A DNA stretch of 38,338 bases, taken from Spirochaetaceae bacterium. GTDB lineage: Bacteria > Spirochaetota > Spirochaetia > Treponematales > Treponemataceae. The stretch is from NCBI GenBank assembly GCA_017936665.1, contig JAGBFB010000004.1, positions 1 to 38,338 of the forward strand, in the 5' to 3' direction. The notes beneath the pieces were generated by a model. The model had not been told where the DNA came from and searched no databases. It saw only the letters and a program-made list of their open reading frames with translations. Below, piece after piece: positions 4,088 through 6,289 of this stretch (positions within the stretch are counted from its first letter, which is position 1; every line of letters starts with the position of its first letter). The position numbers were made by a program, and so were the translations under genes.

Positions 4088-5794
4088 TTATTCCTCCATC
4101 AACCATGTTCTAATTAACATTGCAACATCTTCTGGATGATCTTTTGCCATAGAAATTGCATTTTCTAAAAGTTCAGCACGATGTCTTTCTTCAACAGACA
4201 TTGTAACTTCCATTCCAGCTTGTTCTGCTTCCATGAAAGTACGTTCTCGCTCCAATGCTGCTTGTCTAAGATATTCTTCTTCTTTAAGTCGTCTTCGGCG
4301 TTCAAGTTCTCTACTGATAAATCTAAAGATAATAAATGTAACAAGAACAACTACTATACCAATTAAAGCATAGAAAATTGTCTGGCGAGTTTGTTGTGCC
4401 CTAATGAATTCAGCATCTTCTTCTTGGAACTGTGCAGTTCTATCAAACCGTATATTACGAACAGTAACGGAATCTCCACGTAACTCATTGTATCCAATAG
4501 CATCTTGAACAAGACTTGTTGCTTGTGCAATTGTTTCTGCTGTTATTGGAACATATTCTCTATCTATCGTACCATTTGAAAGTAAAATTAAATTTCCATC
4601 TTCATCGTATCTACGTTTCCATTCTCCATCAATGTTTACAGAAACAGTAACTCTGTCGATTGTAGGACTTTTTTGTTCAGAAATATGCTTTGTGTTAATA
4701 ACATTATTTTGTTTGTTTCCTCTCTCTTCTGATGTACCATATAGATTTGACATATCAGAATAAACTGGAGGATTTTGACCTTCAATTCCAGCAGGACCTT
4801 CTGGATTACCTCCTGTTCCAGTCCATTTTTTTTCTACAGTTTCTGAAGATAAAGTTATTGATTCAACGTATTTTGAGTCATCGTATGGAGTTTTAGGGTC
4901 ATCTTCTTTCAAAACAATAGGAGAGTACTCAGTTGCTTCCACAACTTTTTGAGACATATCCATATCAATTTTGATATTTAAATCTCGTACTCTATCCTCT
5001 GTAAAGATTAATTGTAAGGCAGTTAAAATTTTTGCTCGATATTGAGTTTCTAAGGTCTGAATGAGTTTTTGCTCTTTTGCAATAACATCAATTCTCTCAA
5101 TATCTTTCATACCTTCAAAGTCATTCAAAATCACACCAGATGCATCTGCAATAGTAACATTTTCTGCAAGTAACCCAGGAATTGCTTTTAATAATATTTT
5201 TTGAATACCTTGAATTTTCTTTTTGTTTTCAGTTATATCACTACCTGGTTTTGGATAAATAATTACACTGGCAGAAACAGGATCTTGATCTTCTTGAAAA
5301 AGAGTTTTTTCTGGCATTGACAATACAACATTTGCAACATCAACTTCATCAAGTGCTTCGATATGTTGTTTAATTTGATTTGTTATAGAACGTTGTAGAT
5401 TAACATTTCTTTCAAAATCTGTGGTTGTCCATCTTTCTGTATCAAAAAGATTCCATGGGTCAACATTACCAGGAACCAAATCCTCACGCACAAGAATTGC
5501 ACGCATTCTTCTTGCAGTTGCTTCATCTTTTACAGTTAACATACCTGTGGCATTAACATTAACATCAACATTTTCTTCAGCCAAACGATAAACAATTTTA
5601 TCTCGTTGAGCTTCGTCAGTGATAGCCACATTAAAAAGAGGAACTTCTGTTGTTTTTGAAGATAAGGTTACAACTAGAACCAAAGCCACAATTACAGCAG
5701 CAATGACTCCAATTAAAATAACTTTTTGAATTATTGTCCATTTTGACCATAATTCTTTTATTTGTGAAACTAGCTTTTTAAGCCATTCGTTCAT
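4088..5794 (-). CDS. fliF: Flagellar MS-ring protein FliF
   Basis: A 568-residue inner-membrane protein whose oligomer forms the MS-ring, the scaffold on which C-ring and rod assemble. It has a cytoplasmic N-tail, TM1 at about 22-45, a large periplasmic ring-building region (including NVVLSMPEKTLFQEDQDPVSASV), TM2 at about 473-492, and a charged C-tail ending in an acidic helix (HPEDVAMLIRTWLMEE) that docks to FliG. The ribosome site GGGAGG lies 5 nt before the ATG. Unusually, the start codon itself belongs to one arm of a perfect inverted repeat (5785-5794 with 5830-5839). The gene is also separated from fliE by a terminator and a new promoter, so it may be expressed independently of flgB-flgC-fliE. 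Confidence 0.97.
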   Translation of the reverse strand: MNEWLKKLVSQIKELWSKWTIIQKVILIGVIAAVIVALVLVVTLSSKTTEVPLFNVAITDEAQRDKIVYRLAEENVDVNVNATGMLTVKDEATARRMRAILVREDLVPGNVDPWNLFDTERWTTTDFERNVNLQRSITNQIKQHIEALDEVDVANVVLSMPEKTLFQEDQDPVSASVIIYPKPGSDITENKKKIQGIQKILLKAIPGLLAENVTIADASGVILNDFEGMKDIERIDVIAKEQKLIQTLETQYRAKILTALQLIFTEDRVRDLNIKIDMDMSQKVVEATEYSPIVLKEDDPKTPYDDSKYVESITLSSETVEKKWTGTGGNPEGPAGIEGQNPPVYSDMSNLYGTSEERGNKQNNVINTKHISEQKSPTIDRVTVSVNIDGEWKRRYDEDGNLILLSNGTIDREYVPITAETIAQATSLVQDAIGYNELRGDSVTVRNIRFDRTAQFQEEDAEFIRAQQTRQTIFYALIGIVVVLVTFIIFRFISRELERRRRLKEEEYLRQAALERERTFMEAEQAGMEVTMSVEERHRAELLENAISMAKDHPEDVAMLIRTWLMEE

Positions 5795-5839
5795 CCAAGC
5801 CTCCCATCAGGAAGAATTTTCTTCTCCCCATGAACGAAT
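5785..5839 (-). promoter_or_regulatory. Start-codon-occluding stem-loop of fliF mRNA
   Basis: Perfect 10-bp arms ATTCGTTCAT (mRNA side, 5839 to 5830) and ATGAACGAAT (5794 to 5785) enclose a 35-nt loop that contains the GGGAGG ribosome site. The second arm begins exactly at the fliF AUG. Folding would bury the start codon while leaving the Shine-Dalgarno sequence in the loop. The geometry suggests translational control; no regulator is identified. Confidence 0.55.
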
Positions 5840-5856
5840 AATATCCATCCTATGAT

Positions 5857-5885
5857 ATTGTATCACATATTTTTGTATCTGAAAA
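5857..5885 (-). promoter_or_regulatory. Candidate sigma70 promoter for fliF-fliJ
   Basis: Read on the minus strand, TTTTCA (5885-5880) is followed by a 17-nt spacer and TACAAT (5862-5857). The -10 is extended (TGA directly before TACAAT). It lies just downstream of the intergenic terminator and about 63 bp before the fliF start. The -35 matches 4 of 6. Confidence 0.45.
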
Positions 5886-5893
5886 GAGAAAAT

Positions 5894-5926
5894 AAAAAAA
5901 GTTTCGCACAAATAGCACGAAACTTT
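5894..5926 (-). terminator. Intrinsic terminator between fliE and fliF
   Basis: On the minus strand the arm AAAGTTTCG (5926-5918), an 11-nt loop, the arm CGAAACTTT (5906-5898) and a run of Ts (to 5894) follow the fliE stop. The 9-bp stem plus U-tract is a standard rho-independent layout. It sits inside what is usually a continuous flagellar operon, so it may be partial. Confidence 0.72.
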
Positions 5927-5953
5927 CCTTTTTATTGAATATTTTAGAAAAAA

Positions 5954-6289
5954 TTATCTAGTTGTTGTAATTTCATTCCACCCTTTAATAAGTCTATCAA
6001 TTACATTTTGTGCCATAGACAAAGATAGATTTGCTTCTGCCATAGCGATTGTAACATCATGAACATCAACAGAATCTGGATCTGTAATTAATTTTTGTAC
6101 AACATCATCACTTGCATTTTGTTTGCCATTTACATAATCCATTGCTTGTAAAAGCATATTATCAAAAGCTGATTTTTCGGTTTTACCTTCAGAATTTACA
6201 TTCTTTAAGGAAACATTATTTACATCAATCAAAGGTCCTGAACCAATATGATTTACATTTGTTCTAAACATTTCAAAATTACTAATCAT
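5954..6289 (-). CDS. fliE: Flagellar hook-basal body complex protein FliE
   Basis: A 111-residue adaptor that joins the MS-ring to the proximal rod in the periplasm and is itself exported by the flagellar type III system. The C-terminal half has the conserved helical signature VDVHDVTIAMAEANLSLSMA, followed by the VIDRLIKGWNEI ending typical of FliE. No classical signal peptide is present, as expected. The AGGGGG ribosome site lies 6 nt before the ATG. It follows flgC by 44 bp and is followed by an intrinsic terminator, which makes it the likely last gene of a short flgB-flgC-fliE transcript. Confidence 0.95.
   Translation of the reverse strand: MISNFEMFRTNVNHIGSGPLIDVNNVSLKNVNSEGKTEKSAFDNMLLQAMDYVNGKQNASDDVVQKLITDPDSVDVHDVTIAMAEANLSLSMAQNVIDRLIKGWNEITTTR

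Follow-up and report, generated by a model that had tools for sequence, protein, structure and literature searches.

In the window (the whole stretch of 38,338 nucleotides from a Spirochaetaceae bacterium that was analysed), the start codon of the flagellar gene fliF lies in the stem of a predicted RNA hairpin whose upstream arm is kept before fliF in most relatives of the same family. The main reading of this arrangement, to which we assign a probability of roughly two in three, is that of a conserved cis-acting RNA hairpin in the 5′ leader of fliF, which would act as a translational brake on the synthesis of the MS-ring protein.

An inverted repeat and a predicted hairpin at the start of fliF

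An inverted-repeat search of the window returned two 10-nt arms (5785-5794 and 5830-5839) that are complementary in 10 of 10 positions and lie 35 nt apart. Since fliF is encoded on the minus strand with its ATG at 5794, the repeat begins exactly on the AUG, in agreement with the original prediction of a perfect 10-bp repeat starting at this codon. That prediction had also held the Shine-Dalgarno (SD) sequence in the loop: the SD does lie between the arms, but in a 14-nt bulge rather than in a simple loop. The role of the inner hairpin, the promoter and terminator just upstream, and the exposed state of the SD had been left out of it. The features of the region are the following.

4088-5794, minus strand: fliF, MS-ring protein, 568 aa, ATG start (Pfam PF01514, YscJ_FliF, and PF08345)
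5785-5794, minus strand: 3′ arm of the predicted outer stem, ATGAACGAAT, equal to fliF bases 1-10 including the start codon; the stem reaches 5783 on this side
5795-5808, minus strand: predicted unpaired 14-nt 3′ bulge, GATGGGAGGCTTGG, holding the SD GGGAGG at 5805-5800 (fold and sequence)
5809-5816, minus strand: 3′ strand of the predicted inner helix, UUCUUCCU (RNA fold)
5822-5829, minus strand: 5′ strand of the predicted inner helix, GGGGAGAA, stacked on the outer arm (RNA fold)
5830-5839, minus strand: 5′ arm of the predicted outer stem, ATTCGTTCAT; the stem reaches 5841 on this side through two U-G pairs
5857-5885, minus strand: putative sigma-70-like promoter, TTTTCA-17-TACAAT, with an extended -10 TG (sequence)
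5894-5930, minus strand: intrinsic-terminator-like hairpin with a T run, between fliE and the fliF promoter (sequence)
5954-6289, minus strand: fliE, the upstream gene (Pfam PF02049)

The predicted helix comprises 12 outer base pairs (10 Watson-Crick and two U-G) and 8 inner pairs stacked directly on top, and the SD-bearing 3′ bulge reads GAUGGGAGGCUUGG. The fold of 5845-5780 has a predicted energy of -19.9 kcal/mol (z -3.55), a value equalled by none of 200 shuffles, which places the start codon within a predicted stem more stable than expected by chance.

The earlier argument that such a match would hardly arise by chance was borne out by control starts and by shuffled sequences. Among the 40 ORF starts of the window, fliF alone reaches 10 complementary nucleotides, the next best having 7. 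When the 60 nt upstream of 110 fliF loci were shuffled 100 times each, at least 8 nt were reached in 25 of the 11,000 shuffles, 9 nt in 4 and 10 nt in none. By the same kind of count (perfect pairing of the first 12 coding bases with the preceding 60 nt), complementarity of at least 8 nt is present at 29 of 110 fliF starts, but at none of the 87 fliG and 106 fliE starts of these loci.

Two other candidates for the region were rejected. The ATG in the arm of the window opens a 17-codon frame overlapping the fliF start, which could have been an upstream ORF, but the arm common among relatives, TTCGTTCACGGG, has no ATG. An alternative start of fliF was ruled out by the conservation of MNEW and of its nucleotides.

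Conservation of the arm in relatives

The conserved arm TTCGTTC is situated just upstream of the SD and is complementary to GAACGAA in fliF codons 1-3. Of 59 related genomes, 54 had a fliF match and 50 loci were extracted, leaving out G017, G038, G039 and G052, in which the match was fragmentary or without the first residues; in most of these 50 loci, TTCGTTC or its inner six bases stand directly before the SD. The TCGTTC arm precedes fliF in 32 of 35 loci from the same family and in 7 of the 15 other loci extracted from the same order. Family-wide, the pattern TCGTTC-GRGG-ATGAAYGA is found in 117 of 134 genomes, against 4 for the reversed control, a count in which the window's own genome is scored as a miss, because its spacing goes beyond the pattern limit, and which also misses G021 (start GTGGGCGA) and G025, both with a TCGTTC arm; at least one of the matches (G243) is possibly not fliF, and further matches outside fliF occur in G007, G034 and G004. 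The upstream arm is kept in close relatives, both within the family and, in part, in the order, which supports the original idea that the fliF start is buried in an RNA structure not due to chance.

The 110 fliF loci compared here are the distinct 5′ regions among 130 loci, some of which were collected partly with the help of the peptide MNEWLKKL, so that this start is favoured. Among the records retrieved with fliF are Treponema lecithinolyticum, T. brennaborense, T. parvum and Brucepastera parasyntrophica. Beyond the order, one of 27 loci has the arm (L167, TTCGTTC with GAACGAA), while ATGAACGAA is often kept. There are also 25 loci with ATGAACGA that have no arm. Retention of ATGAACGA or ATGAACGAA without an arm indicates that the coding sequence is conserved for another reason too. 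A T, which is not part of the arm definition, precedes TCGTTC in 93% of 61 loci. In a column-information count, where the six core letters are invariant by selection and the flanking columns alone inform, the SD and the start are strongly conserved and the 20 nt before TCGTTC carry 0.03-0.32 bits, save for the last two columns. Exceptions are L020, in which the arm is kept though the coding start is mismatched, and L094, which has TCGTTC at an odd distance.

Some observations on the same loci may be added. An extended SD, GGGAGGGG, as well as ATGAACGAATGG, are often kept before fliF across the class, even in armless loci (L161-L189). The locus L078, labelled Treponema denticola (SulCav isolate), has no arm; on the FliF tree it clusters with L019 and L020, and its label looks doubtful. 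The FliF proteins of two genomes of the same genus (G001 and G002) show 54% identity to that of the window, against 72-73% for other genera, for which operon transfer or a doubtful genus placement is a possible explanation.

Pairing in RNA or a site in DNA

The distance between the arm and the AUG ranges from 12 to 38 nt over 56 loci, and such variable spacing is easier to reconcile with an RNA hairpin than with a DNA operator. A protein operator had been among the roles first proposed. In this reading a dimeric protein bound to the inverted repeat would block transcription, and it now looks very unlikely: the half-sites are not at a fixed spacing, the arm persists in the 25 of 60 arm-bearing loci that have no recognisable promoter, and genome sites of the pattern are about as numerous as those of the reversed control (6 versus 4). 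What speaks for it is a CheW-like gene of the same genome (L213:837-867, equal to G000:C11:45236-45266), where a perfect 9-bp inverted repeat of the same letters lies over the -10. This repeat covers both the -10 and the start codon of an apparently leaderless gene, so an RNA hairpin there would be untranscribed if the inferred transcription start is right; the one CheW homologue examined (L220) has neither such a repeat nor a TCGTTC in the stretch before its start.

An inner hairpin is inserted between the arm and the SD in L001, L003, L006, L011, L012, L014, L055, L057 and L059. Such insertions also occur in G267 and G354, and in many cases the SD is a second GGGAGG, a GGGAGG-like stretch before it being paired. 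In the outer stem, a purine precedes TTCGTTC in 50 of the 55 loci with T as the facing coding base; it is not part of the arm definition, and a T or a purine flanking the arm lengthens the stem by an A-U or G-U pair. Pairing is preserved through wobble after coding changes in L013 (AAT codon), L029 (GGGCGAA) and L044 (GAG), while the outermost pair is lost in L013, L029, L038 and L043. The original prediction looked to conservation and covariation in related treponemes: the first was found, whereas covariation in the outer stem is weak because its 3′ arm is coding, with wobble-keeping changes on a single side and no clear compensatory double change. Double changes do appear in the inner hairpin: of its 9 pairs, two differ between L012 and L014 by compensatory double changes and another by a change from G-C to G-U. 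The arm state changes just 6 times on the FliF tree, too few for an independent-pairs test against the coding state, which stayed below significance over the 90 of 110 loci with enough FliF sequence. A MAFFT alignment of the arms was misregistered owing to the variable loop length and was left unused.

Codon choice in the 3′ arm was also considered. In full-length fliF genes with the arm, AAC stands at codon 2 in 44 of 45 cases, when 21.6 would be expected from the rest of each gene, and codon 3 is GAA in all 45. The 16 arm-bearing genes that use AAC at less than 35% elsewhere all have it at codon 2; in the fliF of the window, AAC accounts for 15% of the Asn codons other than codon 2. Armless genes lean to AAC as well (23 of 28 at codon 2, versus 17.4 expected), which means that the arm is not the sole reason for this codon.

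Predicted accessibility of the start codon and the SD

The arm markedly reduces the predicted accessibility of the start region: the mean unpaired probability of positions +1 to +9 is 0.18 for the observed sequences and 0.50 when the upstream region is scrambled with the last 16 nt (SD region) kept, and the observed value is the lower one in 56 of 56 loci. For the window fliF the accessibility of the start region is 0.09, the second lowest among 27 starts of the window, and the SD region from -14 to -5 has a mean unpaired probability of 0.73. The 7-bp stem has a mean pair probability above 0.5 in 33 of the 56 loci, and other folds dominate in 23.

A buried start region is also what an RNA thermometer, one of the roles suggested at the outset, would show; in that case the stem would melt at host temperature and switch FliF on. 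Model energies make this highly improbable, since the predicted opening of +1 to +9 in the window hairpin is small (0.05 at 20 °C, 0.11 at 42 °C and 0.15 at 50 °C), that of L027 is flat (0.12-0.13 throughout 20-50 °C), and there was no match to an Rfam thermometer.

It is somewhat less improbable, though still unlikely, that the arm is kept for a reason other than masking the start, be it as a linear RNA signal (a protein or sRNA site), as a stabiliser of the mRNA 5′ end or as part of an alternative hairpin. The arm retained without a partner in L020, the dominance of alternative folds in 23 of 56 loci and the possible GTTC..GAAC(AUG) pairing in loci with GGGGAAC before the AUG would all agree with this idea. 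On the other hand, the commonest short form has no GAAC before the AUG, and the extra purine pairing and the wobble-keeping coding changes point to pairing in register with the start codon.

Gene and transcription context

The gene order in the window is hslV-hslU-flgB-flgC-fliE-fliF-fliG-fliH-fliI-fliJ. Pfam confirms FliE, YscJ_FliF, FliG, FliH, the flagellar-type ATPase and FliJ, and the names flgB, flgC, hslU and hslV were assigned from rod-protein, AAA and proteasome matches. A terminator-like hairpin and an extended -10 promoter divide flgB-flgC-fliE from the part of the operon that begins with fliF-fliG. As the terminator-like hairpin and then the promoter follow fliE, a separate fliF transcript is likely, which, judging from the promoter sequence, would start near 5850 and have a leader of about 56 nt. 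Of 60 arm-bearing loci, 35 have an extended -10 (at least 7 of 8 bases matched) within 70 nt upstream of the arm, where shuffles predict 4.3; among 50 armless loci there is 1. This element ends a median of 22 nt before the arm. The remaining 25 of the 60 arm-bearing loci have no such promoter, which suggests that the hairpin can also sit inside a longer transcript.

A translational brake and its possible regulation

From these data we infer that a brake or delay on MS-ring synthesis is the best reading of the fliF hairpin. The ribosome would dock on the exposed SD and would have to melt the stem before reaching the AUG, and FliF would be produced at a low and fixed rate from an mRNA whose 5′ end often lies a short way upstream of the hairpin. 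In its simplest form this would be a constant brake that keeps the MS-ring protein scarce; in a regulated form, CsrA (with FliW) acting on the GGA of the loop would keep the hairpin shut.

By analogy with other flagellar leaders, the fliF hairpin as a CsrA-FliW target is the leading and most attractive regulated version of the brake, unproven and held here only tentatively. CsrA would bind the SD at its GGA, within the loop or bulge, and block the ribosome, and FliW would free it as assembly proceeds. A passage of PMC4894983 describes CsrA as binding GGA motifs, often in hairpin loops that overlap the SD, with such a conserved structure in the C. jejuni flaA leader, and to that extent provides established CsrA sites in SD-spanning hairpin loops of other flagellar leaders. 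In T. denticola, a CsrA homologue shares a flagellar cluster with FliW, and the flaB1 and flaB2 SDs have putative CsrA sites nearby, as reported in PMC9481697. In the window's genome, fliW (C12:91460-91813) adjoins csrA (91846-92001), and csrA is present in 50 of the 54 genomes with a fliF match and in 0 of the 5 without one. The same-order genomes without a fliF match that also have no csrA are G043, G046, G049, G051 and G057, and CsrA appears to be tied to flagella in this order. A GGA does lie in the loop or bulge of the predicted fliF hairpin, but any SD contains one, and its common context here, CGGGAGG, differs from the ANGGA / AAGGA CsrA consensus. Moreover, the fliF loop has at least 12 nt and is no hexaloop, csrA is equally present in armless lineages, and G010 (99% complete) has the arm while csrA and fliW were not found in it, possibly because of an assembly gap.

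Specificity and comparison with known systems

In a covariance-model search of 36 genomes (model R1, built from 19 short-loop sequences out of 43 distinct ones), the strong matches, taken as the best per genome, are at fliF, and the others are weak (E of at least 0.03). In the window's genome, fliF is the single place where GGGAGG follows TTCGTTC within 35 nt. Rfam gave no match above the gathering threshold in the window, with sub-threshold matches only around 5740-5960, and a literature search returned no title describing such a fliF element. The fliF hairpin appears to work like other start-masking leader hairpins and, as a conserved element of the MS-ring gene, to be undescribed in the literature covered by that search.

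The leader of Bacillus subtilis hag is, like that of C. jejuni flaA, a CsrA-regulated flagellar leader, and the fliF region resembles both in having a short 5′ hairpin with an unpaired SD/GGA before a flagellar gene, in a genome with csrA and fliW. Unlike them, it precedes the MS-ring gene and not a flagellin gene, its stem is formed by the start codon with codons 2-3, and its leader has a single hairpin with a larger loop, a candidate CsrA target. The initiation hairpins of RNA phage coat and replicase genes also sequester the start codon, and as in these the fliF initiation region would be held in a local hairpin that ribosomes must melt; the fliF hairpin differs in belonging to a chromosomal flagellar gene, and its 5′ arm is kept throughout a bacterial family, with a variable loop and insert. 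ROSE and fourU thermometers likewise mask the initiation region with a 5′ leader hairpin, as that of fliF is predicted to do, whereas in fliF the SD is exposed and not paired, no Rfam match was obtained, and the predicted stability is nearly insensitive to temperature.

Implications for motor assembly

A more far-reaching reading, possible and well short of probable, would regard the hairpin as an undescribed family of cis-regulatory RNAs restricted to the MS-ring gene of treponemes and of some sister families, with FliF codons 1-3 as the 3′ arm of a switch in which an assembly signal opens the AUG. The SD would be accessible in the loop or bulge with the AUG closed off, and the opener could be CsrA released by FliW, or another factor. 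If this is true, the first step of periplasmic motor assembly would be gated at translation. Spirochaetes are thought to rely on post-transcriptional control of motility genes, as stated in a part of PMC3757020. A conserved hairpin at the MS-ring gene, with whose product the motor begins, would be a concrete and testable control point, bearing on whether the supply of FliF limits the number of motors per cell.
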